Part shown: piece by piece, positions 15,199 to 61,967 of the stretch
How positions within the stretch are numbered: the first letter of the stretch is position 1
How the letters are laid out: the number at the start of each line of letters is the position of its first letter
Origin: Sipunculus nudus
Lineage: Eukaryota; Annelida; Sipuncula; Golfingiida; Sipunculidae
Reading direction: 5' to 3'
NCBI GenBank assembly: GCA_026874595.1
Contig: CM049306.1
Coordinates: 30,495,519 to 30,559,518, forward strand
DNA: 64,000 bases
Notes under the pieces: model-generated
The model's database searches: none
What the model saw: only the letters and a program-made list of their open reading frames with translations
Told to the model about the DNA's origin: nothing
Program-made: the position numbers and the translations under genes

Positions 15199-15243
15199 GT
15201 GAGTTGAATTGTATTTTATCGGTTTCTTGCTTCTGCTTTTCAG

Positions 15244-37852: not shown

Positions 37853-37975
37853 ATGCCACGGAGTCGTGCAAACCGACACTGTTTGGTGGGCAGTGAAGTC
37901 ATGACTATATGTCTGGCGGACAGTTACTTGTTCAGGGAGGCGATAGAGGACGCCTTAAACAGGCTGGATCTGGAG
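37853..37975 (+). CDS. RASSF: Alternative first coding exon of the RASSF gene (short isoform)
   Basis: ATG at 37853 with an in-frame TGA upstream (37811). The exon encodes 41 residues, from MPRSRANRHC to a helical, charged end (FREAIEDALNRLDLE), and stops at a near-perfect donor, GAG|GTAAGC. It ends in phase 0, exactly what the common exon at 46985 needs, and the joined protein is 288 residues, close to vertebrate RASSF1C and RAPL (about 265-270). The surrounding 37.1-38.0 kb is richer in CpG than the rest of the intron, as an internal promoter would be. It lacks the C1 finger, so this isoform would have only RA and SARAH domains. No homologous N-terminus is recognised, so the call rests on frame, splice site and context. 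Confidence 0.6.
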
Positions 37976-40900
37976 GTAAGCATGCGGTCTCAGCAAGGTG
38001 TCACAGACCTGGTGACCTCTGTCTTGAACCCCACCACGTCCTTGACCTCTAGATATAGATCTCTGTGTATTGTCAGGCTTATAGATCTTACTCCCTTTGA
38101 CATTAGTAATCAAAAGACTGTAGATGATTTTTGAGTTAAATAAAAATGGAGTGTTCTACTTTAATAAACAGATTCTCATGTCAGGCTGTAGTTAATGATT
38201 AAATGAGGGAAATGTTCACCAGAAAACACCTATGTGGTGATTACAGATATGAAGTTCTTGTTTCAATAAGATATTAGTGTATCATTCAATCCCAAATACA
38301 GCAGAGATATGCTGCTTGGGACATTCTCTGATACATAGGCAGTGGGATATCACAAAGAAGAAAATCCACAAATAAAAATGGACACTGATAAAGAACAGGA
38401 AGTATTACTAACCTAAATCTTACACGAGGCCAACCCAATCGATCAAAGCTGGATTTTTTCTGTTGTTTATTTATCTGAAGGCTGTGCATTTGAGTACACA
38501 CTTAGTGTCATTCAAGTGTTATATAATAACCCTTTGTGTCCTAATGCCTTTCCAGATCCTATTCATCTAATAATACTCTCAGCTATATTTCTGCATGTAC
38601 ACTTCAGTCATACACCATACTGTCAGTTCTTGAAATTCTGCGCAATGCTTCTTGCTTACAGCAAAATTTAAATATAAATTTTAAATATTCAATATCATAT
38701 CCATCCAATTAAAATTAATTTATGTGAAACGGGATTTTGTTTACATAGCTGCATAATATGAAAGAGAAACAAGACATGATGTCCAAAAACCATTTTAACC
38801 TAATTAATTATAAGTAATTTTTGTGGTCCTCCCTTTGGCTACTTTACAACAGTTGCTTTCACAGCAGTAATATCATCAGTATTATGCTTAGCTATTAGAC
38901 AACTGGGTTGTAAATTCACTTAGTTTACACCATAGCAGGTAAGAGAATGAAGACCATGAATCATTCAGTTGGTAAAAGCTAATTAATAATAATTAATACT
39001 AGATGGGTGTTTCCTCTTGTTACTTTGACCACTGGGAAAACAGTGACAAGTTCCTGAGCTTTACAAGTTTGAGGCTCAGACTTGCCTGGCATGCTCAGTC
39101 ATGTTTGTATTATGATGAGTGGTCAACCAGGGTTATGTAATCATTAATCAACATGAGTAAACATAATACACCACCCTCAATAAGCCTATAAGGCCAGGGC
39201 CAGAAACTAATTAGTATAGTACACAACCAGCCAGCAGTTCAGTAAGACAAGTTCAGTTACACTGAGAGCACAGAGGTCACAGCTACTTGAGATGTTCATC
39301 ATTCGCAGTCCATGGAATTTTTTCAGGTTTCTCAAGGTACATTTATTTAATTTTTAAGTTTGTCTGTGATAAGAAAATAGGATATTATTGTATATCTGGT
39401 CATTGTTATAAGGGACAGGTAGTTATTAATGAAAGTATGATTCTCACAACAGAACATTTATTCAGTATTCATATGGCAGTGCTGGGCCATTATGTGGTGT
39501 TATTGTATGTAAGTATGGTCATTGCTATCAGGTACAGGTCATTGACATTTAAGTAAGCACTCACCATAGATATATCATGGAAGCACATGTGTTGTATACC
39601 ATTAATCATGTCAGAATGGTTTAACTGACAGTTTCCTCATTATCTTTATCAGGTAACAAATTTACCTGGCACAGTATCAGTTTAATGACATACAGATACA
39701 TTAAATATAATGCAATAGTGATGGATATGGTGGTAATATTGTTGAATGTGTGAAACAGAAGGACAGACATAATTATCAAAAGTTTATCCAATATTAATAC
39801 CATCTTCAGCTGTCATCATAATAATGACTCACAGCCAGCGAATTTTTAATCTTTCTACCATGGAAAGCTTAGTAATAAAGAATTTGATAGTCTGTCAGTG
39901 TATTTTAAGACAAGTGACAGCATTAGAAACAATTACCTCCATTGTTAATGTTATAATGATTCATAATAATAGTAATGAAATGGTAATAGTAATTTAACTC
40001 AAAATGACCCTTGTCAAAATGAGTCATAAAGCAATATCAAAGCTAGTCTTGTCCATCATAAAAACTCAACCACAAGCTAATATATCTTATCTGAGCTGCT
40101 TTATTTGTTTATCATTATTATACTTAATAATTCAGAAACTTTCAAATTTTCTGTGGTATTTGTAATATTTAATTTATTTGTCCAAACCTGGATTATAATG
40201 TAGATTTATCTTAGACAAATGGCCAATATCTCAGAATATTCTCCCATTAGTACCATTGTGATCATCCATCTACCAATACTTTTATTGCCCAGTACCGGTA
40301 TTTGGATTTGTACTGTCAGTGATTGCACACATTAGTGAAATTAATTCCTTTGCATTTACTTGAGTTTCCTGGTAAACATTGCCCCATAACCACAAAAAAA
40401 TTATTTTGTGCAGTTAATATTGGTACATGGTGATCAATTTATCATGATGCTCACTTCTCTACACTGATTAATAAAAATCCTGGTAGAGCTGTTCAACATT
40501 GATTTCCCAGAGAAAAATCCCTTTCTTTAGTTACCTGTTACAAATGGCTAATGTCCTTTCTTTTGTGCAGACTGGATCGTATACTATAATCCAGCTTGTT
40601 GTTGTGTATAAATATTTAATTTATGCTCTTCCAGTAAATGCAAGCCTTTATTTCAAACCATGAAAGAGAGGCAACATGACACAGCCCCTAAAACTACTCT
40701 GATGGGGTAAGGTCAGCTGGGCTCTGACTCACAGCCTGTAAAGCACAGTCTTATCACCAGCACTGTCCAGCTCAACATCCTTATCTCAAGACACAGCGTC
40801 CTCCTGGACTCTTTGAAAACATTTGAGCCAAGTACTTTGTTCAGGTCAAAGGTCAATTTAGGTCAGGTCTGCTTCCAGCACAGCTCTGTTTACAAAGCAA

Positions 40901-43900
40901 AGATGCTGGAGAATTTAGAACATGTTTGTTTATCTATTAGGTCCTTTCTTGTTCTCCAGAAAGGAAATGGACTAAATTGATATTATGACTGGTCTCATGA
41001 CATTGTGTTTAAAAAGTTGTTTTCCCTATGACCTGGCTACGGACTGATGAATTGTAGTGTTTCATGTGTAAAATAAACATGTTCCCAAATTGTATTGCAC
41101 ATTTGTACTCATTGTCTTTTCTTTTTCACCTCAGAACATTTTGAGAAGGACATGCTCCCTGACAACAGGTTAAGACTCCCTATAATTAATGTTATCATGC
41201 AATATTTTACTGAGCATGCTAAAGTGATGCAGCTCTGATCCCTTGTGACAGAGAGATGTCTTATAATTTAGTGGTAATGTCTTTAATGTATGCTTCCTCT
41301 TTCCTTATTTGATATTGAGGTCAGATATGTGACATAGACAACTTTCACTGTCACCTTTGCATACTAATAAGCCCTGTCTGCATGGTTCTTATGTCAGACA
41401 GTTCTCTTTGATCTGTCAATGTATGCAGACTCATATTTAGTTGTAGAATCAGACAAACTTTTATGTAGTTTGTGCATATTCATTCATAAGCTTAACTGTA
41501 TAATGTTAATCCAAACGTTCATATCAAACCTGTTACCTTGAAAATAAAAGGTAATCACTATGTACTGAGATGGTATTACCTGTGATCACTGTTTTTCATT
41601 AATATTTACTCAGTATAAAACAACATGGATATAGTGCTTGAACTAGTTGTCTGCCTTGCTATTTACACAGGCGCTGTGCTGTGATTATAGGGATAAACCA
41701 GGACCATTTGCTTCCTAGCCCTGTTGACCCTATCAGTAGAAGGGGTGCTCCAGACTGATAGCCAAAATAAGGGTCATTCAGTGTGTTTAGTAACGGGGAT
41801 ATGCCCTATTTTCCCTCTGCATGTGACTGCCATATGTGTTAATCACAGGGTACACATACATCAAAACGTCAGGTTATACATAACAACTTGTAAAACAAAA
41901 AAACGTTTATTATCGGCTCCATTATTTCACCAAGTTGGTTCATGAACAGTCATACCCATATGCATTTATTCAAAGACTCCCTACGGATCTTGAAAATACT
42001 AGCAAGAGTTCATTTCAAAGAATAAATTCTGTAATTAACTGTTCAATTTACATTCTTAACTTTTTAAAGGGAATTGGTATTTCTGCTTCTTTTGTTTCAG
42101 TAATTCAGGGTTTGAAGTAAAATAAGAATAGTAAATACCAATCATTGTTTAAAAACAAGGCTTGATTGACATTATGGCTTGATAAATAGATCCTGTACTA
42201 CAGTAGCCATACACTGTGGCACATGAGAAAAAATGTTGAATTAGCTGTAAAATATAGGAATAAAATGTCAGTGAAAAAGTTCAACTTGCTGACACCAGCA
42301 TTCATCAGGTGACTGTTTTTGCTGGTTTATATTACCATGAAGACTGTGCTATAAACAAATCATGAACATAAAAAAAAGCTATCGTAAAACATAAAACTAT
42401 TAGGACCTGCATAGTTTCTTTCTTATGACAGCAAGTGCTGCCGAGTTGGCAGACTTTTTTTGCTACAACAGACAGAATGAAAGTATCATCTGCAAGTAGT
42501 GGTATCAATAAATCTTGGCTGGCACTAACTTGGTCAGCTGAATCATGGAAATCTGTTTATTATTTTTTTCTCTTTTGCTCTTATGCAACAAATACACAAA
42601 CACAAATGCATATCCCTCAACTCCTGAAGGAAGCACTTAAATATTTAGTGTATTCTACTGGAAATGCCATTAATAAATCTGTAGGCCTTCTGCTTCTGAG
42701 TACATGATTCCTAACTACCATGAGTAATGATCAGTAATATGTGAAGTCAAACTCCCATAGTGAGAAAGTGACACAGACTGATGGCCCATTCTAACCAGTG
42801 CTGGAAAGCTATGGCAACAGGCAGATGTAATCAATGTAGCAGCCATCATCAGTACTCTCCCATCCATCACCTGGCTGTCTGATTGATTCTACAGAGTGGC
42901 TTAGACTGTCCAGATTACCTGACCAAACAGTCTCTGTGGGCTGGCTACACCTGCTGGGCTGCCAGCAGTAAGGACATACAGCACTGCTGGACCCTGGTAG
43001 CATGTTACCTGAATATACATGTTTCAGGTAGATATCTGTCATATTCCATGCATTTCCATTTGTGCAAGGTCAAGCACATTCTGATGAATTACCTGTTACT
43101 GATGTATTATGTTTTGATTATTCTGGAGGCACATTACCTTAGGCATATATTTTACATAACCAAATCTGTATTGCATGCGTATGGTTTTCAGATTTATTCA
43201 GCACTTGTGACATCCAAGCTAAACACTAGCTCATGAATAAATTTCTTCACCATGATGTCACACCTGAAATTGAAAAATCACTTTAAATCATGATTGATAT
43301 ATGATCATGTTGCAGTCCACAAAATGAAATAGTAGTATCTGGGGTTTTTTTTTCAGATGAAGTTATGTCCAGAGTAGTATGATTCACCATTTATTATTTA
43401 TTATGGAATGGTTGCTTGCTGCTTAGTTACATATTATTAATTATTTTGTTCCCTTGTATTTGGCTGATAATAAAGCAAGTTGGTTGGAGCTGAATTAAAG
43501 AAAACAAATTAAATAATAATATTGCAGTAGTTAGCATCACTATCACAGTGTGAAAGCTAAAAATATGAAGTAAATAATCATGAGACCTACCGTTAACAGT
43601 TCTCAGTGAAGTGAACCTTGGGGTACATCATGATTTTAAATACCACCACCTGAGGAGCTGTGCAGGTTAATGGTAAATAATGGCAAGTAAAAATTGGAAA
43701 GTAAAAAGGGAAAGTGTGATGCAATAGGAGTGGTAAATCTGAACTATGTTTGCTCTCATTTAGTACTGGTAATTAAGCTTCATTTCATATTAATCTAATG
43801 ACTTATATATTGCTGGTTATAAAAAATGTCTAGTATGACTGTAATGTGAACAGAGCTGTTCAGAATTCCATTTTTGCCCCTGGCAAATTGAGATTAATGC

Positions 43901-44534
43901 AGATTTTATTTATAAAGTGTAAACTAGTGGTCCTGCCAACTTTTGAATTTGTATATCATTATGTATAAAACAAACACCAGAAGAAGGTACATTCATTTTA
44001 GCTGAAAGACATTTGATGGTTACAAATGGATTGGACAGTAGATAATGGCATAATCCATAAAATGAACAGGTTTATGATATGTAGAGCCAGCTTTATGGAT
44101 ACAAACCTATACATTACATTTTATGCAGGGAATATTTGTATTTGTGCCACATACAAAACCAGGATCTACCTGTGATCATTGTATACCTGCTTATTCAATA
44201 TGCATCGTTAATCCTTCCTTATCAGTCGACTGGTTACTCGGGGCACTTGAGTAAGCAGGTATACTTCGCTTATAAATAACTGCAGACCAAAGTCCTCTCA
44301 ACAAGATACACTTGTGCAAGTTCATTATTAACTGTAGGAGAGGGTGTCTTGTCTAACCATGCAGTTAAATAGGAGTCCCAATGGGAGTAAGAGCAGAACT
44401 CAGTCTAAAACTGCTGCAGTTAAGTTGTAATTATATATGGGTGAGTAAATCATATTAAATGATCTATTATTGGTTAAATCTTTCCATCAGTGGATATAAT
44501 CATTCTTTGCCTTTTGATGGTAATTTTTCATGGA

Positions 44535-44605
44535 TCATGTGACTCTTATAAGATCATGTGACTTCATAAGTGAAGGGTCATGTGACTTGATAAAGGTCAT
44601 GTTAC
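44535..44605. promoter_or_regulatory. Cluster of four TCATGTGAC-type E-boxes
   Basis: TCATGTGAC at 44535, 44554 and 44578, and TCATGTTAC at 44597, spaced 19-24 bp. Two lie in GATCATGTGAC and two in GGTCATGT. GTCATGTGAC is the M-box/CLEAR-like site bound by MITF/TFEB-family bHLH-Zip proteins. It sits in the RASSF intron, 2.4 kb before the common exon. It may be an enhancer or only a decayed short tandem repeat. Confidence 0.3.
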
Positions 44606-46984
44606 AAAATTTTTTACCAATAGCTAAAAAACAAGAACCCCTAAACTGATCAAAGCATTTGATGAGTTGAAAATAAGTGTTATTTGTTCTGTTGTGTTGA
44701 ATATTTAGACAATTTATTGTGTTTATGTTTGGGGAGTAAGGCAGATGAGTACATTCACATGATGATTTAAATACAATTTAGATTTATATGTGAAGGCTTT
44801 ATATCATAACCACAGTTAGATAGAACATTATAAAACATTAAAAAAATCAGCTTTAGCATACTTCCTGATTACATAACTGATACATCATGTGGATTAATTA
44901 CTAAAAAGATAATCACATCAGTCTATTGTGATTTGATACATGTGGCAACAAAACATTCCTACCTGGAGTTGTACATTTTTATTTACACACCATGGTGTTA
45001 ATATTCAGGGCTGACAGCAGAGCTCAGTTAACTAATTGCTATAGAGCTACTAGTCAGGGGCTTGAATTGGACAGTGATATAGAGGACAGTGACTCACTAG
45101 CAGTCTGAGTTGTGAAGGATTACTTTTGATGAATTAAATATGCAGCTCTCATGGCTGGCCTGGGACTACCATAGTGGTCCTTTTGATTAGTGGACAGCTG
45201 TAATAACCCAAGTCATGCCAGCACTTATGGCAGACTGTTCAGCATAGCATGCAGTCTGTAGCTGTTGTTAATAAAGCTGATTATTCAGTCTAATGTTATT
45301 ATACTGAAATCTAGCAGCAGGGTAGAAAACATGGCATGTGTTATGTTTTGAGAATATGCATGTCTAGTTTTTGTCCTTCTAATTTATAGCTGTTTTTCCA
45401 TGAACTTAATTTAATGACTAACTTGACATTGGTTGTACATGTAACTATCTGTAAATTCCAAGTCTCCTGTATTTAGTAATAGTGTTAACCCTTCTAGATT
45501 AGTACTGAGTTAGAAAGCCAAGGCTTTGATGAAAACCCATTAGTAACAGCCATGTATGTGTTAAATTCCTATAAATAATGTTATAAATTATATCAGCTCC
45601 ATGCACAAAAAACTTGAATTCAGATGGCTTCATGATAATATGTAAAGTGGTAAGAACCTCTGTTAGCTTATAGAACATTTACATTTATATATATGGTTGA
45701 AAACCCATGTGGCATGTGTTAATATGCATTTAATCAGTTTGATTGACATAATTTCCCAGTAGTACAGAAAGTGAACAAATCAAGTGTGCACTCTTCCCCA
45801 AATCTGCACTGGACTTACATCATTTTGCCAAAATTTCCGTAGCTCATGTAGACCCCAAGTGTGAAGACTTGGTGGTTATCAAATCTCCATCTTTATTCTG
45901 TGAGCAGTGCTATGAGCAGACCTTGGTCTACAGATAAAGAGAATCTTGTGTCTGTGGCTTCAGCACAGGCTTGTCCTGGTCTGCTTGTTTATGGGCTTCC
46001 CTGAATTACTTCCTGGAATGATCACCCTCCAGGGGTCATAACCCTGGATCCTTGTGCAGAGACAAATTCATCAGTGGGAGAACAGGAGAATTTCACATAA
46101 AACTTACCATGTTTCTCAGTGCTCTTTACAATTTCTTTGTCCTTGCCTTTCAGTGGTAGAAATTTTTATACAGAATATATATTCATGTATAATCTGCATA
46201 AATATAATTTATCAAACACATTATTATCATTGGTTGATATTGGTATAAAACATAAAACCCTGTGAACCAGGGTTCTGTCTAAAATTTCTGTTGTATGAAA
46301 TGCAGAAACTATTTGAATCAAACATATCTGTCATGTGTTGAGTTTGAGACAATCCACTTTTTGGGGCAGTTAAAATACACAACTTTGCTGCTCGATACAT
46401 ATCACAATACTTAACGCACAATATGATACACATTTTATACATAATCATTTAGATCCCAAGCTGAAGTGTCCTTTGGAAAGAAATGTAAAAATGCTTCCTA
46501 TCATAATTGTTGCTTCCAAACCATAAATAAAATTTATTTAAAATGAGCAGCCAATCAGATGCCATTCAGCTCATTTCTTAACAGTGACATTCCACCCTTA
46601 ATGCCTTATATGGTACTGAGAGACTATTATAAATTCTGGATGTTGCTTCCTATCAGATGATCAAATATTACAATGTATCAATACAGGTGATGATACCAAT
46701 ACAATGTTTGGCTTCGAATCAAAATATATCAGTGCACTAGTGAATTCTTACAGCCTTAACTCTGTTAGTATAATATATATTATATATTATTTTGGTTTTT
46801 TTTTATTTTTATAAATATAAAAATTGTTTATTATAATTGTAGTATAATACTTTGATATTTTAAATATATTGTCTATATTATACCTGAGGGGAGACTGAAA
46901 ACTGATGCATTTACATGGGATGATATATTAGCTGATTACTTTATTAGGTTACCATGGTAACAGTTTGTACTGGTTTGCTTGTAG

Positions 46985-47125
46985 GATGATGCTGATTCAG
47001 GATACAACAGTGGTCGGCTTTCCTCGACACAGCCACCGCCAGGGGAGAGGACGCTCACCCGCGAAGATCTCAGGAAGCAGATCGATGCTTTCAACACAAA
47101 CCAGCATGGCCTTCTCATGACCCTG
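46985..47125 (+). CDS. RASSF: RASSF common exon: SGYNSG linker before the RA domain
   Basis: Follows TTGCTTGTAG and ends CTG|GTAGGT; 47 codons, phase 0 at both ends. Starts DDADSGYNSGRLSST, resembling the SSGYCS motif at the start of RAPL and in RASSF1C. Then ERTLTREDLRKQIDAFN aligns with the helix before the RA domain of RASSF1 (the segment that includes its ATM-site region) and of NORE1 (LQEIKQKIDSYN). It is the acceptor for each of the alternative 5' exons (15198, 15389 and 37975), all phase 0, so the long and short isoforms share everything from here on. Confidence 0.92.
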
Positions 47126-47600
47126 GTAGGTAAAAGCTGGTTAGTCCTAAGCTGTTTATACTGGAAGGCCGTTTATACTGTACATGCAAATGTATAATCA
47201 AAAGCATGCACATCTCTTCTCTATAATGACCGCCATCATTTCCTGCAGGCTTCAGTTGTCAGTCATTGAGTTTTTGAAATTCATGCTTGAATGTGGAAGT
47301 GTTACACCCAGATCTTTCTCAACTAGTGGGAGACTTAACCAACACAATTAATGGCTGGTCATGTGACAAGTTTCTTTTTCAATGGCAAGGCTATGTAAAA
47401 GATTAGGAAATAATTTAATTTCCTCATTGAGATTTTTATCACAGTTTTCCACATAGCATGTAGTACCACTCTGACATCGAAGCAGACTCCTAAGTCACAG
47501 GGGTAAAAGTGCTGATGGTATCATAGTCCATGAAAGCGCTATAACCTGATTATTATCCTCAGTAATGGTTTTTATCATTTTCTTATTTATTTTTTTGCAG

Positions 47601-47806
47601 CACGAAAATGATGTCACATTCCAGGGCTTCATCAGAGTACACATGAACCTGATTCGTCCGATCAGCATGTCCATATCCACGCGGCCGCCTTCCATCTACG
47701 AGGTCCTCACGCATGAGGACCAGGACACGTTAAATGATGACACGGGCACCCAAACAACCTCCTTCTATCTGCCCAAGGACACCACCAAGGTCATCCATAT
47801 CAAGAG
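47601..47806 (+). CDS. RASSF: RASSF exon: start of the RA domain
   Basis: Follows TTTTTTTGCAG and ends AAGAG|GTCAGT; phase 0 in, 2 out. Encodes FQGFIRVHMNLIRPISM, matching YTGFIKVQLKLVRPVSV of RASSF1, and then TSFYLPKDTTKVIHIK, matching the highly conserved TSFYLPKDAVKHLHV. These are the first strands of the Ras-association ubiquitin-like fold, which binds Ras/Rap GTPases in NORE1/RAPL and RASSF1. A 15-25 residue acidic insert (HEDQDTLNDD) sits between them where vertebrate proteins vary. Residues about 89-157 of the 288-residue isoform. Confidence 0.96.
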
Positions 47807-48365
47807 GTCAGTAGCTCCAGTATGAAGGCGCACAGTTAAAAAGTACCTCATTTTCTTATTTTTATGAAAAGAATGTATCCCAAGATTCGGATGGGAAGTT
47901 TTTTGCATGTTGAGTAGCTTCCATATATTTGCAAGGCCACTTGAAGTCATGTGACTGCCTTTAATTTTGTTGCACTAAATATGTACCTTCATTTAATTTA
48001 TGCAGTTATAGGATCACTGATGATGATTTATAGTGTCTTAAACCCTTTTAGATATAAAAAGTGACAAATGTTTGTAAAATTGTAACCCTTTGTTATTAAG
48101 TTTAAGATAATAAAATCATAGGTCCTTGTCAACATATGCCCAATTTGGTCAGCAAGAAACACTGGTGAAAACATAACCCCCGTGGCTGAGGATATTGAAT
48201 AAACTTGATATGATGGATATAGTAGTTAACGCTTATCAAAATACTTACTAACCCTCTGTAGCAAAGTTCATGATGGTGAAGTCCCAAAAAACTCATGAAT
48301 GTTTTAGTTTTGGTGTATCAGTGTATACAAAACCACACTTATTGAGTCTTTTTTAAATGTTTCAG

Positions 48366-48466
48366 TGAAACAACAACTCAGGAACTGATCCGGGCCTTGT
48401 TACAGAAGTTTAAGATCACAGATAATCCTCGAAAGTTTGCCTTGTATGAAAAAGCTGTGAAAGATG
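48366..48466 (+). CDS. RASSF: RASSF exon: middle of the RA domain
   Basis: Follows TGTTTCAG and ends GATG|GTAAGT; phase 2 in, 1 out (101 nt). Completes the Ser codon after HIK and reads ETTTQELIRALLQKF, the RA-domain helix (REVIEALLRKF in RASSF1), and then NPRKFALYEKAVKDG, matching DPRKFALFERAERHG. Intron positions coincide with those of vertebrate RASSF1/5. Confidence 0.96.
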
Positions 48467-49564
48467 GTAAGTGGTTTTTTAGAAAATAAATTATGAGTTC
48501 TTATGACTATTTATCAAGCTGCTTGAAGGAATTCTAGTCCAAAATAATGCAAGATTCACCGATTAATACTCAAGAAGATCAGTTTAAAATTTTGATCATT
48601 TCCTTTGTATTGAAGTGCTTTTGCCTATTTAGCAAAAAAATTTTATTTTTATGCTTTTCCCAGATCAAAAGACATTTTTATCGAAACATGCTAAAAAGGT
48701 AAAAAAAATAAAATATTGCCCGCCCACACTGCTTTATAAAAAAAGTGCCTTAATATTTTATTTTTTAAACTGACTTGACAAGCATACTTGTGTGTAAAGG
48801 CAGTTTTAAACCGGATGCGTCTGAATGATTTTATGTTGGAATGGAAGTTTACTGTAAAAACAAAAAAATAAAACCCTTTGTGTCATATTGGTGCATACAA
48901 ATCTAATCCAAACAATCATATCCAAACAAAAGAAAAAATAGAAAATGTTTTTGTCATTCACATCAGATAAGAATAGCTTCTTTCTGCCTTCAACACAGAA
49001 GAGCTTGAACTTGCACTACAACTGGTTTATTTGTAGATCACCTATACATGGTATATAATCTTTCATAACAATGCATCAGGTATGTAAGACATGGCTTTTC
49101 CTTGATCACTGTTTGCGGAAAAATATGCTTACATAAAATATAACAAACAAAATTTCAATCAGATTTATTTGATCTGAATAAGTTTTTATTACTTTTTCAC
49201 TGGCTCCAAATCTGTCACCTCTGCATGTACCTAGCTATAACCTGGTACCTAAGCTAAGTGACCCAAATATTTTCAAACACCTTGATGCGTATATATTTTT
49301 TAAACATAAATTTTTACACAATTTACATTATTAAGAATATAAAATGGAACAAAAATCAAGATTTTTTAGCTGATTTTAATCATAACTTTTATTCAGTGAT
49401 TAAAATCATGTCATTTAAATCAGCTATTGCTGCCTCAAGCTAGTCACCATTATATTTGCAAGGCATGATATAAATAAATTATTTTCAAGAGATTTCTGTG
49501 TGTGGACTTGAAAATACAGTACAATCAGAGAGATAACTTTAAATGAATGAGGAGAACATATAAG

Positions 49565-50186: not shown

Positions 50187-50201
50187 CCCCCCCCCCCCCC
50201 C
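50187..50201. repeat. Poly-C tract with flanking CCAAT-bearing duplication
   Basis: About 15 C with one T near each end. Right after it TACAGGCCAGCCAATCAG occurs twice (50210-50227 and 50237-50254), 27 bp apart, each with a CCAAT box. Probably a small local duplication. Confidence 0.7.
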
Positions 50202-50846: not shown

Positions 50847-50965
50847 GCAAGATGAGGAAGTTGGGTGATGCAGAAAGGCCGTTGCCGCTGTGCCTTACCT
50901 GGACAGCAGAGGGTTTGAACCAGCACCGCTTTGTACTCCAGGAGAACGATACGATGGAGATACAG
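50847..50965 (+). CDS. RASSF: RASSF exon: end of the RA domain
   Basis: Follows TTCATCAACAG and ends ATACAG|GTGAGC; phase 1 in, 0 out (119 nt). Reads ERPLPLCLTWTAEGLNQHRF, then VLQENDTMEIQ, matching QPLRLRLLAGPSDKALSF and VLKENDSGEVN of RASSF1. It completes the RA fold and leads directly into the SARAH exon. Confidence 0.96.
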
Positions 50966-51353
50966 GTGAGCTGTACATAAGTCATTAAAGACAAATCAGT
51001 GACATAACATTATAAAGCTCATACGGGTCAACATCTGCTGAACAAGTGAGATGTCCAGACTGTTAAGTCATGTTGGCAATTACATTCAGAGTGTGAGCAT
51101 GAGGTTTTAATAAATATGTCAATGAATCGATTAAATTTATTCAGTATTCAAGGTTTACTAAGTACTACCCATACACTTTTACAAAAAAAAAGAAATAATA
51201 ATATTATTAAGTATTTTATACCAGTCAAGTGGATGAAAAACTTTTTAGAGCATCTGTATCTGTTTACCAATATATTTTGCACACATCTTCTAAAAAAGGA
51301 TATTGTGATTGTTATAATTATAACAGTGTTAAATTTGGTCTTGTTTCTTTCAG

Positions 51354-51530
51354 TGGGAGGCATTCAGTTTACCAGAGTTGGAGAATTTCTTGCGGATCTT
51401 GGATCGAGAAGAAGCAGAATATGTAGATCAGGTGAAAGCCAAATACGGACTGATGAAGATCCATGTCCAGCAGAGACTGAAAGACATGGGTCTGGTCCAC
51501 TCAGATCAGCGCCAGCCAGTCTTTGTATGA
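51354..51530 (+). CDS. RASSF: RASSF last coding exon: SARAH domain and stop
   Basis: Follows TTGTTTCTTTCAG; 58 codons then TGA. WEAFSLPELENFLRIL matches WDAFSMPELHNFLRIL of RASSF1, the start of the SARAH helix. It continues as a charged amphipathic helix (DREEAEYVDQVKAKY) with a tail of about 15 residues ending QPVFV. SARAH domains of RASSF1-6 bind the SARAH domains of Hippo kinases MST1/2, linking Ras-type GTPases to Hippo and apoptosis signalling. The gene is of the C-terminal RASSF class; RASSF1, 3 and 5 are the nearest vertebrate members, and it may descend from their common ancestor. Confidence 0.96.
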   Translation, partial: WEAFSLPELENFLRILDREEAEYVDQVKAKYGLMKIHVQQRLKDMGLVHSDQRQPVFV

Positions 51531-53014
51531 CCTTGACCTGTCTGTGTGTGGTCTTGATGTCTTTAGAGAGCCTGCTGACCTGGCAGAACAGGTGATGCCT
51601 GCAGTATACTGATGTTACCTCAAGGGTTCTCATTTATTGATGAGTTCAGAACTTGTTATTGACTTTCGTTTTGAGGACTCTGAGATAACTCCAGTAAGAT
51701 TATACTGTTGATATATATATTTCGAATGCTGCACAGTGGAGAAGCTGTGTGGAGCAGCTGTGTGGAGGTGTGGAGTGTTGAGGGTCCAGCAGCTGTGCTG
51801 GCACTCCTTTTCCACCTGCCAGCTGACTGGAGGAGTCTGTGGTGAGGACGTTGTGGTCAGGTGGACTTCTGTGTGTGCAAAACTGATCAGGCAACATGTA
51901 CACAAGCTTCTCTGAATAATCTTTAATGTGTATAGAATGTTTCACCCAAATCATAATATGATGTAAGCCCAGATTAAGTCAGTATATGGCTAAAAGGCTG
52001 GTGAGACAGCACTGAAGTCCTGTCAGAGCCAGAGACAGCAGTCTGTACAGCAGCAGCGTACCAGATCATGTTGTAGCTGACCAGTGTTACTAGCAGCAGC
52101 TGTAAGGGTATCAGTATCCAACTTCGTGAGATGTGATATATTGTGAAGTACAGAGGCGGTGGTGTAGCTTGTTACGGTAGCTATCTAATTGGGGATGGGG
52201 GGTTGCATATTTTGTCAAATTTGATGTTTTCACCATGGAACAGTTTGGATCCTGCAAAAAGTGTCAGTCAGATTTTTTCTGACAAAATTCAAGAAGACTC
52301 AGTAAATGTATATATCACGGTGTAACCTCAGTATAATGTTGCCAGGTGTATATGCCGTGACTACATGTCAATTTTTATTGTAAAAATAGCACCAGGTCAA
52401 CCTGATGCTTTATGTTAATACAAGTACACTTTGCAAATAAGTTACAAAGTTACTGTATTTGGTTGGAGTTCACGTTAGGTGTACACAGCTTGTAGACTGT
52501 ATTGATCTTGCTTCTGCTGACAGCTATATCACTTATAAATAAAATGCTGAATATAGCACACAGCATTCTTGAGGCAAGAAATTACCGCCAGCATATTGCC
52601 AGTTTTGAATATAAACCAGCAATGCTCAATGGCTAGGTTAGCTATATTATGTGTGAAGATGCTATATATATTGTACATCAGAAAATAGATAGTGTGTTCA
52701 TAGATATATAATATACAGTATCCCATGAAAAAAATGCAACATGATGTATTCTTATTGTACACACTAATTATTTGATATAACTGAAAATAACTTTATTATA
52801 ATAAAACCAGAAAAAAAAATATAAAAATATGGGAAAGCATGCAAAAAGTGTGTACAAATGTGATTTGTATTACTGTAGAACTGCATGGTGAGACTGGGCT
52901 TATATGAGAGTGTACATGTATAAGAGATTTACTCAAGGCATTTGACAATAATTTGTATTATATGCAAATGATCAAAGCAATTTTACAGACAGATGTTCTT
53001 AACTTTTAACCACT

Positions 53015-53035
53015 CCCCCCCCCCCCCCCCCCCCC
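53015..53035. repeat. Poly-C tract (21)
   Basis: The longest C run in the window, inside the probable RASSF 3' UTR. Confidence 0.9.
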
Positions 53036-53872
53036 AATTAAGCTTCAGTGTTTTAATATACACCATAATGGTGTCTTCATGTGCCATCTGTTTTCTAATA
53101 CAGGTAAAATAAGTTTTTAAATTAAAATTTTAAAGTTAAATAAATTTTAATTTTAAAGTTATTAAATTATTTTATTTTACTGGTACATATGGATGGAACT
53201 TCAAAAAGCTTTTTTGTTAAGAATGAAAGTAGAACCACTGCATGTGGATTTACTTGAGTTAGGAGTTAAAGTACACTTACAGTTCTTGTTTATTAAGATT
53301 ATAAACTGTAACAACATGTTATTATCTGCTAGTAATTCTGTACGATCAGATATTAGTTATATAACTGTGTGGTAAAGTAATGTTCAATTCACAGATGGCC
53401 TCCTTATCCATAAAGAAAAGGTTTCCATACTAATCAGAACTACAAAATTGATCATTGCATCTCTCTTTATATTTGAATACATAATCTGTGAAGGATTTTT
53501 TTTTTCATGTGTAACTAATGGTTGCACTAGAAAATATTATTAATATGGAATTAATATGTATGGAAATATATGCAGAATTGCAGAAATGGAACCTAGGTAT
53601 CACATTCTCTCCTTCTCTGTCTCTTAACTAATACACATCTATATATAGCAGGTATTTTGTCAGGGGCTTATAATGATGATGATTATAAATAATGTATTGT
53701 ATGAAACCTGTGTAATGTACCATGTAACATTTGTGGCATTAAAGGTTTGACAGTTGGTTTTAGAAATACTGTTATTTTGCACAGTTTAAGAATGTTACAA
53801 ACATGTACAACTTTGTCTCGTTGCCACAAAGCAATGCTCTTACATCAGTTGCATGACACCTAGTCAAAACCA

Positions 53873-53878
53873 AATAAA
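53873..53878 (+). terminator. RASSF: Candidate distal poly(A) signal AATAAA
   Basis: AATAAA followed about 30 bp later by T/G-rich sequence. The best-looking cleavage site after the RASSF stop; AATAAA at 52538 is an alternative. Confidence 0.45.
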
Positions 53879-54410
53879 GAATGTATCCCAATTTACCTTA
53901 CATTTGTTTTATGTTTGACCCACCAGTGATGTAGTCAGCTGATTTAAGACTGAGGCCCGTCACCATGGGATCTGATCAGAGCCCAGAACTAAGAGATTAG
54001 ATATTGAGACTTTTCTAAACCTTTTTTTATGCGTAATCTGAAAGTTAGGCCACAATAGAGGAGACCCTTTTTGCTGCAAAATCATGAGCCCCCACCTACT
54101 GCTACATGCAATAATCAGTGCTTAACTCCTTTGCCCAGGTTGTGTTCATGGATGCCTGATATTTGGTGAATTCAAGTTTGTTTGCAGTAATTTCCATCTG
54201 AAAGAATGGGAGAATCATGGGTAAGGGAAGACCCCAATAAATTTTGGTGTGGACCCAGATGAAGGGGTATGATGGCTGAGGTATTCACTTCAGTGACATA
54301 CTAGCTGAACAATGTAAGATGTATCTGGAGGAAACTCCCCATTCTGGTCTTAATAATTGTCTCATCACCTTATGAATGTGGAAACTTTGGGAATGAAATA
54401 TGACCATGTT

Positions 54411-54780
54411 TTTTAGCTCAGCTGACTGTATGTCAACTGAGGTATAGGAATGGTGCCGACGGCCGTCCGTAAGCAGGACACAAATCGTAACTGCTGGACC
54501 TAGAAACTTCTAAGTGAATATCCAGGGAGGTCAATAAAAAATCTCCTTGGAAACCTGAAATTAGGTCACTGCGACCGATATCCTCCGAGCTATGGGGCTT
54601 GAAAGTTCCCCCAGAATAATCAAAAATATAATACAAAACCTCCAATATCTTGATAATTAATGCATAGATTGTCATGAATCTTGCCTTGAATATTGATCAT
54701 GACTAGTTTTGTAAGTTCACAAAAAGTGGTGGTGCCACCTGTAATTTTTGTTATTTTAACGAATATTTTAAAATTTTTTT
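54411..54780 (+). mobile_element. Dispersed repeat with AGCTCAG hairpin, second copy
   Basis: Starts TTTTAGCTCAGCTGAC and folds back with GTCAACTGAG, like the copy at 29937. The body ends with AATATCTTGATAATTAATGC, then 70 bp later GTGGTGGTGCCACCTG, which is the unit seen in the Helitron-like elements at 18404 and 30190. Confidence 0.6.
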
Positions 54781-54839
54781 TTACTATAAAATGACAACAG
54801 TCATGTCAGTTTATCAGCTTTAATTACATCTAGTGTCCC

Positions 54840-54889
54840 AAAACCTGGTGTGTTTTTTTATCACAAGTGGATGCCATATAGTTATCACC

Positions 54890-54930
<41 letters not shown>

Positions 54931-55934
54931 CATCCATCCATCCACACAAATTTGTTTCCAGATGATAACTCCAGGTTGTATTGACACATGGATTTCAAAC
55001 TTGACTTACATATGGCCCACTACTAAAGCAAGAACATATATGATTTTGGGGTCATGAGGTCAAAGGACAAGGTCACAGGACTCATTTTTTAAAAAAGACT
55101 GTGAATGCATTTTAAGCCAAGCTTTTCATCCCAAACTTTCCATTTTGCACATTTAGCCGACTTGCCAGTATGGGGAGAGAATAAATGAATTTTTGGGTCA
55201 CATGGTCAAAGGTCAAGGTCACAGGGGCCATCTGTTCACAAATTAGTTTCCAGATGATAACTCCAGTTTAGTTTGACATATTGGTTTCAAACTTAACTTA
55301 TATATGACTCACCACTAAAGTAAGAACTGTGTGGATTTTGGGGTCCAACGGCCAAAGGTCATGGTCACAGAACTCATTTCTTTAAAAAGAATGCATATGC
55401 ATTTGAAACCAAACTTTTCATCCCAAACCTTCCATCTTCGAGATATTGCTAACCTGCAGAGGGGAAGATCCTGTTCAATTTTGGGGTCATAAAGTCAAAG
55501 GTCACAGTAACCACTTATTAAGAAAGAATGTGGATTCATTTTAAGCCAAACTTTTCATCCAAAACCTTCCATCTTGCACATATGGCTGAGCTGCCAATAG
55601 GGGAAGAAACTGATTCATTTGGGGGTCACAAGGTCAAAGGTCATTGTCACAGGGGCCCATCTGTCCACATATTTGTTTCTGGATGATAACTCCAGTTTGG
55701 ATTGACATATTGGTTTCAATTTTGACTTATATATGACCCACCAATAATGAAAGAACCATTTAATTTTTAGGTCATAAGGCTAAAGGTCAAGGTCACAGGA
55801 CCATCCATTCACAAGTTAGTTTATGGATGATAACTCCAGTTTGGGTAGACAGGTTGGCTTCAAACTGATCACAGGACCAATATTTTGGAAAACCTCAAAG
55901 ACATATATCCTTGCAGCTGTGCGTCGAGACCTAT
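54840..55934 (+). mobile_element. Helitron-like repeat with (TGTC)n, AGGTCA-rich tandem units and 3' hairpin
   Basis: Contains a (CTGT)n run followed by CCATCCATCCATCC (about 54890-54943), then four degenerate units, each starting GATGATAACTCCAG (54961, 55252, 55683, 55826), and most including GGTCAAAGGTCAAGGTCACAGG or a variant. The right end has GAGACCTATGGGTCC then CTAG (55931-55934) followed by T, a Helitron-like 3' end. The left boundary is uncertain. No protein frame. Confidence 0.55.
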
Positions 55935-55959
55935 GGGTCCCTAGTATGAGTATATACAT

Positions 55960-56250
55960 CTAGAATGATATATGGTCCATCAGTTGGACAAAATTTTGTT
56001 AACAAGAGTGCCCTCATAACAGTAAAAACTTGTGTATGTACTTCAGTTTTAACAAGCATCCCTTGTATATGTACTTCGGGAATGATATATGACTATCAAG
56101 TCAAAGTTTTGTTAACAAGAGTGCTCTTGTGCGAGTATATACTTCAGGAAGGATATGACTATCAAGTCAAAATTTTGTTGACAAGAGTGCCCTTGTGGGA
56201 GTATGAACTTCAGGAATGATATATGACTGCCAACTCACAATTTTGCAGAT
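55960..56250 (+). repeat. Degenerate tandem repeat, unit about 60-70 bp
   Basis: Four diverged units carry GATATATGACTATCAAGTCA, AATTTTGTTAACAAGAGTGC and TGTACTTCAGGAATG. It directly follows the Helitron-like repeat. The frame stays open across units (an 84-codon open frame), which I regard as a repeat effect. Confidence 0.7.
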
Positions 56251-58955
56251 CAATTAGCCACCATGATTGTTACCTGGCCCAGAACCATTAATGGCAGAAA
56301 TTAAAATACCTGAAAGTACTTGTAGGTTGATAGTGCTTATAAAATATTCCCATATATATCCAGGTAGTCTTAACCATGGTACAAATGTATAAAAGGTTAT
56401 AGGTGCAGTGCTGCAAGAACAAGTAAATTATACAATTGGCAAAATGAAAAATTCATTCTTATGTTTTAAAATTACAAGTACTCCAATATTTGCTCTCATA
56501 ATACATTCTAGTTAAAGGCCTGTCTGAAACAGGGAAAGAATCTTTCTTTTGAGTGAATGTATGGTATTGTCAGCTTTAAAAGAACCCATCAACATCCAAG
56601 TAAAGGTCATGGTTGCTCAGACTTACTCTCTGGCAAACATACAATCTTCAGTGGTTACTGGACCCCATACTACACTCGCTGTTACATACAAGCAATTTCA
56701 CAAAAAAAACATACCAAGGTGGTTCAACATTCCTGCCATTTTATTTTGAACTGGTGACTTTCAAGGTGAAAAGACTCTGAAGTATATAAATGATGAACTT
56801 AATGAAAGTAAAAATGTGAATATACAAGATATATCATAATACTGAGGAGGCCAACAGCTGTTAGTTCACACTATAACCAGCTAAACTAGGACTTCATCCA
56901 ATACCCCTAAACATTATTAAGCAATATGCTTATACAATATGTATCCTCTGATTAGTGTTCGGCCAAAAAATGCTACTGACCGGTGCATTTAGTTATAACA
57001 CATTTCCAACTCATTTGCAAAAGAATCAAGATCTATAACACTCATTATAGCTAAGTATCCCAACTACATGATAATTATGGTTTATTAATTAAAATTCATT
57101 ATTACATTCCTTTTTCAAATAATGGGTGTATTTCCTGGTCTTTTGAGTACCAACATGTACTCCCAGGCTGATTGGACCTTTTAGCTATCATTTCTGCTGG
57201 TCATTTGTGTAACAAAGTATGATCCTGTCGTTAATGTAACTCACATATTAACAGGACTCATGTTTTAACAGAGATAAACAAAAATATTACATATATTTAT
57301 AAATTTAAATATGCAATTTTGTATATTTCGCTAAGTTCCTGCTTGGGCTTATGATGATGCTGAAAGGTTTGTCAGTAACAAAGATTAGAGTGACCTCTGG
57401 TGGGCAAAGATGACATCACATACAATGGTTCCCTGAACCAGCCAAGTAACTCCAACACTCAAACTTTTCAGTTACATCATCAATTGACTTTGATGATCAT
57501 AATCAGTAAGGACATACAAAAAAAATATTGTTCCACCAATAAGCTGTTTCCATTTTTCCATAGATCATATTTTTGTTTGCAAATGAACACCAGGTCCTGG
57601 CTAATGTTGCTAATTTGCGTAATTTCACACATAACCTAAAGAATTTTTTAAAGTATGGGAAATTGACTAAATTTGTCTATGTGTCTATCATACACACCAT
57701 TTCAAGAACTGGCGCAAATTTTTGTATTTCCAAGGCATGCAAGCAAAATTCCACTTATTGTGTTTCAACCAGTAAAAAGAGAAAATTGCCTGCTAACACC
57801 ATATTTTTTGTTCCCAGAGTCTGTAGAGTAATAACGTTTGTTTGTGTGGCCTAAAACTAAATTCACTGGTCACCCACTAGACTAATAATAATGTATTATG
57901 CATCATTTTATTACTTACTGTCAATGATGATGCGTGGAAAACCCACCTAAGTTAATATTTATATTAACCAACACCAAATCAACACAACAAAGAGATATTG
58001 ATAATAACACCATCATGTATGCAGTTTGTACAGTTATAACCATGTCCAGTCCCAGGCACACCTTATATACAAGTAGCGTTGAGCTGATTTTCCACAAGTA
58101 CTAGTATGTAATCTGCATGCTTAATCCATATATCAGTATCCAGTCAGATTTCCATAGGTACTTGGGAGTGGTCCATTTGATTTTTTTTTATAATTCAGTA
58201 ATAAGAGCCTGGTTAAATCATTATCTATTATAATAATAATAATTTCAAATATGAATTGTATTAATAAATAAGGAAACCAATTCAACTGTGTAAGACTTCC
58301 AAAAGACTGATAATCAAAAATTTCATATTTATACTATTTAGAAATAGACAATATTCATATGTCAGGGCTCAATTTGGAAATTCCATGCCAAAAACAGAAA
58401 CTGACTTAGTGACAGGTATGCAATTAGTGACAGGTATACAAGGTGTGCATAAATAACACAGCATTTTGCAGATGTACACATATGGACTATACTTGGGATT
58501 ATGTAGACAGATTAATGGTATGAACTGAGTTAAAATCTGCACAAGGCAATACTGATCATTGTGGACTATGCGTTCCATCTATGTACTTATGGAAAACCAA
58601 TATAACAACAATGTTAACATGGCTTCCTGGTCAGTGAAATGGCCAAAATACACCTGACCTGGAAACATTAAAAGCCACATGATTCAAGCAGAAACATTTA
58701 TAATATACAAAATACAGTTTTCACAATCTCCTGATATACCCATGTATCATAAAAAACTGAGAATCTGGCTGGTTTATTTCCTTAATTTGTTTATTTTTCT
58801 GTACCTGTAACTGTAACATATCCCTCTACTTAAAGAAATCAACCATCATCACTCATTTGTGCTTTATCCCCAAAGGTCATGACTATCTGTGAATATCAAA
58901 ACATCCTCCTCAGAGTCTATATTATATTGTTTTATAATGCCCTATAATAACATTT

Positions 58956-58988
<33 letters not shown>

Positions 58989-59479
58989 ACAGATTGTTTT
59001 CTCATACGTTTCATACAAAAACCATATATATGAGAAGTCTAGGGCGAAATAGTCACAAATACATAAATCTACAGTTTTGACAGCACTTATACAGAAAACT
59101 GCACTGCAATGTCAATCCATCCTCTATTGCATTTACATTACTGTACGCAGCTTAAAACCTTACCATTAAACTGAGTGAGGAATATACAAAATTTGAAAGC
59201 CTGTGAATGTGCAAAGTGTAAAATCACACTTTTATAGTGACCACTAATAATTTCCTACTCTTTGCATTACTTTGCAGTCATTTTTCACAAACTTGACAGA
59301 CTCTTTCCTCATGTGGTGGGTGTATAAATTAACTACATGTATAAACAGTTAGTCCAATTTATCCTAACTGACATATTTGTAAATGGTAAAGTCTTGCAAA
59401 AAAAAAAATGATGTAAACATTTAATGGAATCCCTGAACTTGTTGCACATGACTGTAGGAATTAATATCTAATACTTATA
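56251..59479. other. Intergenic, no gene recognised; (TA)n microsatellite at 58961
   Basis: AT-rich sequence between the RASSF and TUSC2 genes. It holds only short open frames without domains or good splice context, and a (TA)n run of about 14 units at 58961-58989. Confidence 0.55.
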
Positions 59480-60360
59480 AAAGGGATTCAGTTCACGTTT
59501 GTTCGCGGTGTTCTCTTTAACCGCGTTGTGTACAATATTGTGCCATACATCATTTTAAAGGTGATTATCCCCGCAGTGACATAGGCGATATGAAAATAAA
59601 TAAATTTTAATATACACATAATTTTGAGTAATTTTTCGGTTTTTTTACCGAGCACAGCCTACTTGCCTTCGGCAATCACCGGAATGCGTGCATCGTGGTC
59701 ACTTAACCTCTAACACTAAGGACTATTGTTCATATGAATAACGCTTGCTTTCAATGAGGGATTTGACCCACGTGCGTGGTCAGTAAAAGAGAAAAACACA
59801 TGTTTCTCGCTTTATGAAATGGAGAGTTCAACCCAGGAGGATTAATGACAAAACCTAATTCAAGGTCCCGAATTCAGGAACAGGGCTGGGGTGGTGTCGG
59901 CGGTCTGAAAATGGGATACGGACCCACTGCATGGAGTCTTGCTGGGTCCGCTTCTGCTACTTACGATGTATGTATATTTCTGTTTCCTTCTTCAGGAACA
60001 GTTTCCTTGCAACGTACATATAATTAATCTAATGTGTTCCTCACATCAACCTATTCTCTATACGTCCAACGATAGAAACCAGTCAAATATCAACGAAACA
60101 CTGTATGCCTCTGCGTCTCATTCCGGTTCGCAATGTAAACCATCACTGACCAGGTCTTTAAGGTAAACATACCGGGATATGATTTTTGCTACGAGCATAG
60201 CGCCACAAAATAACAGTAAAAAATTATTTGTACATATTGTATTCCGAGAGTATCCCACTAAAAATCTATATTTTCTTTTAACTTTTATAATAAAAAATGA
60301 GCCAACATTCAATATCTCAGTTAATATATCTCCCAAACCGCGGTGAAAAGCCTGGTATAC
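59480..60360. promoter_or_regulatory. CpG-enriched block, possible promoter
   Basis: CpG dinucleotides are frequent here (for example GTTCGCGGTG, AACCGCGTTG, GTCGGCGGTC, AACCGCGGTG) whereas flanking sequence has very few. It also has a CACGTG E-box (59770). Such blocks in animal genomes usually mark unmethylated promoters. It lies about 730 bp from the 3' end of the TUSC2 homologue. Confidence 0.4.
59845..59967 (+). CDS. Possible first coding exon of an unrecognised gene
   Basis: ATG at 59845 opens 41 codons ending TACGAT|GTATGT, phase 0. It reads MTKPNSRSRIQEQGWG, then a Gly- and Ser-rich stretch (GVGGLKMGYGPTAW). It lies in the CpG-rich block, as a first exon would. I do not recognise the protein, and no downstream + strand exon is visible before 64000; any such gene would overlap the TUSC2 homologue in antisense. 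Could be a non-coding transcript or chance. Confidence 0.25.
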
Positions 60361-61090
60361 CGGGTTAATCAGCTAGTGTTTCAATAAAAAAGAAGTCAAT
60401 ATCGGTTAATCTTTGAAGATGGACTGGTCATGTGCAACACTGACACCTGTTTTTAAATCTGATTTATGATAGTGAGCACCATATATTGTACTAAACTATA
60501 ACTGCATGTATAATGAAATCTGTGTTAAAACTTAAAAGCTAAATTCTGTAAATTAAATTAACAAATACCAATGTACTGTGATGTAAGGAGGGATTAAGTT
60601 AATTTGTAGTGAGTGTACATAGCAATACAAATTAAATAATTAACATATATTTCATGGTCAGGGAATGAATGATTCATAATTTAATTATATTTATTTTTAT
60701 ATTATCACATCTTGGAACAGGATTATTAATCACCTGAGCAGGAATCAATTAATGTTTATTTACACCAAACACTACTATAATTTATGTTGTCACTTTACAT
60801 CAAAAGCTTATAAAGGTCCCTACATCTTTAATAAATACTACAGACCTGTATCTATTTGGTCTTAATATTCTAGCTGGCCATTTGTTATATAAATCTGGCA
60901 TCCCCTACATTCTTCTCACTCTTAATTACATAAGATTTGCAGGTGTTCTGAAGAGCTGAAACTAGTTCTTCACAAGTACAGAGCCAGACCATCTGCCTCA
61001 CTGTCTCTCATTCCTATATCATTGCACATCATACCACCCCATTCTTTATCACACATCACGGGAAATAGTTCTACTTCCAAACACCAGATG

Positions 61091-61162
61091 TCACCTTGGT
61101 GCTTCACACAAGACAATGGGCAGATCGATGTGAAGTCTTGGTACTGGAAGGTCCACTTCACC
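61091..61162 (-). CDS. TUSC2: TUSC2 last coding exon
   Basis: On the reverse strand, follows TTTGTTTACAG; 23 codons then TGA, phase 0. Reads GEVDLPVPRLHIDLPIVL and ends CEAPR, matching the human C-terminus, where VKLDHPRIHVDFPVILYEV is conserved. TUSC2 (FUS1) is a small protein reported in vertebrates to be N-myristoylated, mitochondrial and involved in calcium handling and kinase restraint. A longer open frame in another reading frame of the same exon (60970-61191) is a shadow. Candidate poly(A) signals on this strand are at 60755-60760 and 60690-60695. Confidence 0.93.
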   Translation of the reverse strand, partial: GEVDLPVPRLHIDLPIVLCEAPR

Positions 61163-61840
61163 CTGTAAACAAAACCACAAATATATAACAAGTGCTGGAC
61201 AGTTAAACCAGGTTCTCCTGCAATTCATGAAAGCCAAATTCCCTGATGTTCCTTGAATTCCTCCTGATTGATATTAAAATGCCAGTATAGAAATATATAT
61301 ATACTATATTTATTTTACATGGATTTACAACTAGTTATAATGACTAACATGAGGCACTCTCCATGGTATTTCTTAGTCTTTGGAGGTGGATGAGACCTTA
61401 GGACACAGAGAAAACCATCAACCTTGGATGGGAAAACTACAACCCACTCTTATAGCCACACAGGTGATTAACCAGCATTTTACCACCTGACTGTCCAGAC
61501 CCCAGGACAATCATACCCAGATCTACAGATTGTAATGTTGCTAAAGTGAACACAAAGAAACAAAAGAAAAGACTGGCACGTATAGTACAAATGTACACTA
61601 GTATCTACTGTGACATCAAGCCAAAATAGCCTATAATCCAGGGAAATCCAATAAGTCAAAGTGATAAAAAATTGGACAGGCAAATCATCAAATGCTGATT
61701 TTCCATGATAAATTTATCAATTGATCAAATTCTAACCAATCATATCATGTCAGAAGTCTTCCAGAATTTTCCAGATAGATTCCCTATATTTAAGGAATTC
61801 CGCAGAGCACAATAATTTTTAAACAGATCTGTAAAGTTAC

Positions 61841-61967
61841 CTGTGGTGTGAGATTATTTGTGATGCGTTTCCATTTTCTTCGCCGCCCCTTCTTTCCATG
61901 TTTCTGTGCAGGAACTTGTTCATAAAATTCATGGGCCAAGTCTCCATCTTCATCGAAGTATTGAGAC
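61841..61967 (-). CDS. TUSC2: TUSC2 middle exon
   Basis: On the reverse strand, follows ACATATTGTAG and ends CCACAG|GTAACT; one nucleotide to finish a codon, then 42 codons, phase 0 out. Reads SQYFDEDGDLAHEFYEQ, nearly identical to human SMFYDEDGDLAHEFYEE, then a Lys/Arg-rich stretch (KHGKKGRRRKWKR) and ITNNLTPQ, matching HKNLIPQ. The first exon (with the expected myristoylation start MGxxxS) must lie beyond 64000, so the gene is partial here. It faces the RASSF gene; stop codons are about 9.6 kb apart. Confidence 0.95.

Follow-up and report, generated by a model that had tools for sequence, protein, structure and literature searches.

The question raised by the DNA analysed here is whether RASSF1 and TUSC2, adjacent genes of the human 3p21.3 tumour-suppressor region, were already neighbours before the vertebrates arose. 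The stretch (hereafter, the window) comprises 64,000 nucleotides of the sipunculan Sipunculus nudus, bases 30,495,519-30,559,518 of a 110.9-Mb contig (C1, CM049306.1) that makes up 7.8% of an assembly of 1.43 Gb in 153 contigs, and it holds most of a RASSF gene together with part of a TUSC2 gene. Positions are those of the window; zero or negative numbers and numbers above 64,000 refer to flanks outside it. The RASSF proteins are Ras-binding scaffolds that meet the Hippo/MST kinases through their SARAH domain, and TUSC2 belongs to a family of myristoylated mitochondrial calcium proteins. In vertebrates the RASSF gene has been duplicated into RASSF1, 3 and 5, and TUSC2 has remained beside RASSF1. 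An earlier, sequence-only reading of the window had proposed that the pair is part of an ancient microsynteny with the 3p21.3 cluster. Here, we examine that proposal by a comparison of two species, in which the genome of Sipunculus nudus is set against a human gene order taken from a published paper.

Two genes, tail to tail

RASSF and TUSC2 are immediate neighbours in Sipunculus nudus, with no recognised gene between them. RASSF lies on the forward strand and TUSC2 on the reverse strand, and their stop codons are 9,560 bases apart. The convergent, adjacent arrangement described by the sequence-only reading is upheld by Pfam matches to single exons and to the joined genes, and by the finding of one place in the genome for each gene (statements of this kind refer throughout to a search of the 1.43-Gb genome with one profile model or one open reading frame, ORF). 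The gene borders that it gave did not hold, as the coding sequence of RASSF runs from -15,693, before the window, to 51,530, and that of TUSC2 from 65,930, past the window end, to 61,091.

The seven coding exons of RASSF span 67 kb, have GT/AG ends at all six introns and join into a single open frame of 449 amino acids (aa). From the N- to the C-terminus the joined protein matches the Pfam models C1_1 (9.2e-12), RA (2.2e-19) and Nore1-SARAH (6.6e-16), the last two being recognised in single exons as well, at 9.2e-8 and 3.1e-17, respectively. The C1_1 domain crosses the junction of exons 1 and 2, and its halves were found by pattern search, the second in the exon at 15,244 and the first in the flank at about -15.3 kb. 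For the Nore1-SARAH model (PF16517) the last exon of RASSF is the only genome place matched, and among solved chains the best match of the protein is RASSF5 (1.5e-27, with a query that had one extra residue). The C1 zinc finger is described as being confined, among the C-RASSF proteins, to RASSF1A and RASSF5 (PMC4695899). From its predicted product, the gene is therefore assigned to the RASSF1/3/5 type (C1, RA and SARAH), and to the RASSF1/5 branch of it, because it combines a C1 domain with Nore1-SARAH and has RASSF5 as its best solved relative; the assignment was made by domains and by the ranking of solved chains. The sequence-only reading had placed the start of the gene at 37,853. This position was rejected as the sole start, as the C1-coding exons at -15,693 and 15,244 splice in frame to exon 3, and it is retained as a possible alternative first exon.

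The coding sequence of TUSC2 consists of three exons that encode 112 aa. Its middle coding exon (YFDEDGDLAHEFYE) matches the Pfam TUSC2 model on its own at 1.3e-12 and is the only place in the genome matched by that model (PF15000), and its last exon alone reaches 1.4e-4 with 22.6 bits, which is below the cut-off of 25. The joined protein matches at 6.2e-30, over profile positions 30-111 of 111, and the glycine in its N-terminus, MGQTGS, is a predicted site of myristoylation. Two further features were observed at the start of this gene. A tandem near-copy of the start region of exon 1 lies upstream of it (65894-66128, reverse strand; 117 aligned bases without gaps), and its frame meets a stop shortly past its ATG. 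Directly before the TUSC2 start codon, at ~65940-65953 of the same strand, there is an upstream ORF of four codons (ATGTACAGAAGTTAG); conserved upstream ORFs are described for the human TUSC2 mRNA (PMC9576590).

The statement that no gene is recognised between the two was likewise borne out. Fourteen ORFs of the gap, i.e., all 10 with 75 aa or more that it contains in full and four shorter ones, had no Pfam match over the cut-off (two weak matches had E values of 0.12 and 0.039); the scan did not extend to the remaining short ORFs or to two overlapping the last exon of TUSC2. Rfam and tRNA scans of the whole window gave no match. At 54932-55866 the gap carries a tandem array of diverged units of ~146 bases, perhaps a dispersed repeat, with AGGTCAAAGGTCA-like motifs that we take to resemble nuclear-receptor DR1 elements.

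An array of this sort inside the gap is the one feature that would suit a misjoining of the contig between RASSF and TUSC2. There is not a single N in the 214 kb around the pair, the gene models are complete on both sides of the gap, and the same-chromosome relatives discussed below would lead one to expect both genes on C1, all of which render an artefact of assembly extremely improbable.

Relatives of the human 3p21.3 genes

The human order is given as HYAL2, FUS1 (TUSC2), RASSF1, BLU/ZMYND10, NPR2L, 101F6, PL6 and CACNA2D2 (PMC9576590). Seven neighbour families were searched for across the genome, of which five gave a usable place (Table 1) and two, zf-MYND and CACNA2D, did not and were left out of the counts. 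In the human nomenclature, 101F6 corresponds to CYB561D2 and PL6 to TMEM115; IFRD2 is found nearby in 3p21.3. Four of the five placed families are represented on contig C1, for which the share of that contig in the assembly gives a binomial probability of 1.7e-4; when cytochrome b561, the label of which is tentative, is removed, the count becomes three of four and the same formula gives ~1.8e-3. Compared by eye with human residues, the translations fit NPRL2, TMEM115 and, for the C1 copy of cytochrome b561, CYB561D2. Some of the HYAL, cytochrome b561 and IFRD matches read through one stop codon, perhaps at intron borders.

The two remaining families yielded little. The genome search for the CACNA2D family, which was run without a positive control, gave no match. 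ZMYND10 was not recognised by eye among the 18 MYND places of the genome, in a search that could overlook a MYND domain interrupted by an intron; none of these places lies in the window or in the flanks examined, and one is on contig C1. The MYND place at 13.83 Mb of that contig was considered as a ZMYND10 candidate and rejected, since among solved structures it matches DEAF1 and CBFA2T1 best, whereas its matches to ZMYND10 have E values of 0.19 and 0.28.

These results do not sustain the broader microsynteny with the 3p21.3 cluster that the sequence-only reading had proposed. Of the two genes that it had pointed to beyond the window edges, NPRL2 is indeed on the same chromosome but 27 Mb away, and ZMYND10 is the unrecognised gene just mentioned; HYAL is on another contig, and the flanks of the pair hold other genes. 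The cluster is not conserved as a block in Sipunculus nudus, and what is shared with the human order is the pair only. The likeness to the human 3p21.3 (LUCA) cluster consists in the adjacency of a RASSF1/3/5-type gene to TUSC2 and in the fact that several further members share their chromosome. The differences are that the pair is tail to tail here and on the same strand in human, and that the other placed members on contig C1 are 27 to 71 Mb off. What we see is conserved linkage with scrambled order and one adjacency left. Retention of linkage with loss of order is described as a known pattern of bilaterian chromosomes (PMC7269912); the relatives of linked human genes on contig C1 conform to it in sharing a chromosome and not an order, and depart from it in that one pair is still immediately adjacent.

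Origin of the adjacency

We consider it likely that the adjacency of RASSF and TUSC2 is a surviving piece of ancestral gene order. The ancestor of Sipunculus nudus and the vertebrates would have had one RASSF1/3/5-type gene adjoining one TUSC2 gene, with NPRL2, CYB561D2, TMEM115 and IFRD elsewhere on the chromosome of the pair. Intrachromosomal rearrangements would then have moved the other genes tens of Mb away in the lineage leading to Sipunculus nudus, or would have gathered them in the human line. The change of strand relative to human suggests that either RASSF or TUSC2 was inverted in one lineage, which would have produced the tail-to-tail arrangement and left the pair unbroken. The simplest mechanism would be passive retention, as only those breaks that fall between RASSF and TUSC2 can part them. 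In this respect the pair would resemble the ancient microsyntenic gene pairs of animals reportedly described by Irimia et al. in 2012, i.e., two unrelated genes that have been neighbours since before the major animal lineages split. As a case of very old gene order that has been kept it is plausible but not exceptional, and not surprising by itself. No account of the RASSF-TUSC2 order in an invertebrate was found among the titles and beginnings of abstracts listed in literature searches, and a query combining TUSC2, RASSF1 and synteny returned nothing.

The first alternative is that the two genes are neighbours by chance, having stayed on the same ancestral chromosome, been shuffled and met again, or that the human pairing is a later accident. 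The order of genes on contig C1 is far from the human one, with the four other cluster-type genes at great distances from the pair, and this scrambling would be expected if chance had governed the positions of all of them, as would the unlike orientation. On a chromosome of an assumed 1,500-2,700 genes, the probability that a named pair is adjacent by chance is 0.07-0.13%, and it is this figure of ~0.1%, which takes the sharing of a chromosome as given, that makes a chance encounter unlikely. An ancestral remnant is the more probable reading of the pair because chance adjacency is so rare, both genes are complete, each has one place in the genome, and relatives of their human neighbours are on contig C1.

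Several points weigh against an ancestral origin nonetheless. Among the human-adjacent pairs of which both members could be placed (HYAL2-TUSC2, TUSC2-RASSF1, NPRL2-CYB561D2 and CYB561D2-TMEM115), only TUSC2-RASSF1 has been kept, i.e., one of four. The pair was noticed post hoc in a scan, which makes coincidence likelier and is also to be counted in favour of a chance encounter, and its orientation differs from the human one. The comparison is of two species, with the human side drawn from a paper. As for the supporting linkage, two of the seven families had no usable place (zf-MYND and CACNA2D), cytochrome b561 has a second locus on contig C13 and the CYB561D2 label of its C1 copy is tentative, and the position of IFRD2 in 3p21.3 is presumed.

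The other alternative is a functional hold, in which control elements of TUSC2 would lie inside the long introns of RASSF and breaks between the genes would be selected against; the sequence-only reading had suggested shared regulatory DNA of this kind. The coding exons of RASSF are indeed spread over 67 kb and its introns are very long (exon 1 is separated from exon 2 by 30.5 kb, and exon 2 from exon 3 by 31.6 kb), and long introns in a neighbouring gene are typical of regulatory blocks. Set against this are the apparent inversion of one gene relative to human, the ordinary CpG content of the first exons of RASSF and of the TUSC2 start, and the broad expression of RASSF and TUSC2, which are not typical developmental targets. 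The tail-to-tail layout speaks against a shared promoter and is silent on enhancers in introns. On balance we regard a functional hold as quite improbable, and retention of an ancestral order without such a constraint as the better account of the adjacency.

Candidate first exons within RASSF

In human, different promoters of RASSF1 are described as giving rise to its forms A, B and C (PMC3170651). The gene of Sipunculus nudus might be a non-vertebrate case of a RASSF1-type gene with several promoters, a doubtful but not negligible reading of the predicted exons: a long form with C1, starting 15.7 kb before the window, would be accompanied by three forms without an intact C1 domain that begin with inner first exons of 480, 181 and 41 aa (Table 1). 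The lengths of the surrounding ORFs are the stronger part of the evidence. The 534-aa and 224-aa intronic ORFs exceed the longest ORFs of 60 simulations of the forward strand of the 67-kb RASSF locus (mean 129 aa, maximum 182), and they are two of only five ORFs of at least 200 aa on both strands of the 214 kb; the other three are a second-frame ORF that overlaps the 534-aa one, a transposase recognised by Pfam and an F-box exon. Cut at ATG and donor, the 480-aa and 181-aa candidates have one genome place each and are therefore not repeats, as judged by genome search. Neither the 534-aa nor the 224-aa ORF matches a Pfam family.

Frame fits are weak evidence because random donors often fit: by chance a donor would be in frame with one or other of exons 2 and 3 in 2/3 of cases for the 480-aa candidate and candidate B, and exon 3 in 1/3 of cases for candidate C, downstream of which only exon 3 of these two lies. 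The 480-aa exon, if spliced to exon 2, would yield only half a C1 domain. CpG observed/expected ratios are near the median at the four RASSF first-exon starts (percentiles 0.56-0.59) and at percentile 0.43 at the TUSC2 start, and these ordinary values lend no support to promoters of the CpG type. A codon score failed to distinguish genuine ORFs from those expected by chance (the exon of the BTG gene described below scored no better than one of its shifted frames) and was not used. The predicted layout is like that of human RASSF1 A/B/C in that the C1-coding first exon is far upstream and inner open exons would allow products without an intact C1 domain (PMC3170651). It is unlike it in that the alternative exons are predicted only, and the likeness is one of layout.

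Flanking genes and feature coordinates

In the flanks, where Pfam was run on selected ORFs only, a BTG family gene, an F-box gene and a tentative APMAP-like gene were found in place of 3p21.3 cluster genes. Human BTG2 and BTG1 are on the same chromosomes as RASSF5 and RASSF3, which fits the prediction of an old linkage. The APMAP-like and F-box genes, both on the reverse strand, lie in the left flank, at most 84 kb from where RASSF begins; the former consists of two exons and was named by eye, its NHL (0.0095) and SSL_N (0.013) matches both being below the cut-offs.

Table 1. Features of the RASSF-TUSC2 locus (window positions) and places of 3p21.3-type genes elsewhere in the genome (contig positions).
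Feature	Position	Strand	Remarks
RASSF exon 1, coding part	-15693..-15234	+	before window; first half of C1 zinc finger
RASSF exon 2	15244..15389	+	C1 second half; CH..C pattern; phase-1 join in frame; GT/AG ends
RASSF exon 3	46985..47125	+	SGYNS motif, RA region begins; splice join; donor GTAGGT
RASSF exon 4	47601..47806	+	RA region, TSFYLPKD; splice join, Pfam on joined protein
RASSF exon 5	48366..48466	+	RA domain; PF00788 9.2e-8 on single ORF
RASSF exon 6	50847..50965	+	RA domain end; splice join, Pfam on joined protein
RASSF last coding exon	51354..51530	+	SARAH and stop codon; PF16517 3.1e-17; splice join
Inter-stop gap	51531..61090	.	no gene recognised; tandem array of diverged ~146-base units, ~54.9-55.9 kb
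TUSC2 last coding exon, stop codon	61091..61162	-	Pfam single exon, splice join, joined protein
TUSC2 middle coding exon	61841..61967	-	PF15000 match; splice join; Pfam single exon and joined
TUSC2 exon 1	65930..65791	-	past window end; protein begins MGQTGS
Candidate first exon, 480 aa	-6572..-5132	+	in 534-aa ORF -6,689..-5,088; fits exon 2 frame, not exon 3
Candidate first exon B, 181 aa	14656..15198	+	in 224-aa ORF 14,533..15,204; phase-0 donor; fits exon 3 frame, not exon 2
Candidate first exon C, 41 aa	37853..37975	+	phase-0 donor; fits exon 3 frame; short, weak evidence
F-box gene exon (perhaps FBH1, by eye)	-98899..-97742	-	Pfam F-box 1.2e-10
Tc5-type transposase ORF, adjoining F-box exon	-96800..-96099	+	Pfam
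BTG family gene, beyond TUSC2	88341..88910	+	PF07742 1.6e-41
NPRL2 (NPR2 family)	C1, 3.47 Mb		27 Mb from pair, nearest placed cluster gene
Cytochrome b561 (CYB561D2-like)	C1, 84.9 Mb		second locus on C13
IFRD	C1, 92.6 Mb		
TMEM115 (DUF1751)	C1, 101.1 Mb		
HYAL	C15 only		

Implications

An ancestral adjacency would mean that, within the 3p21.3 tumour-suppressor region, the pairing of RASSF1 with TUSC2 predates the vertebrates, even though the rest of the cluster forms no block in Sipunculus nudus, and RASSF-TUSC2 becomes one concrete pair for testing shared regulation. Should the multi-promoter reading of RASSF also prove true, the A/B/C isoform switch that is important in human tumours would be older than the vertebrate duplications into RASSF1, 3 and 5, and the long intronic territory that such a gene needs would be a reason for RASSF and TUSC2 having stayed together. 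With C1-bearing and C1-less RASSF forms already present before the vertebrates, isoforms that act differently as Ras/Hippo scaffolds would then not be a vertebrate invention.

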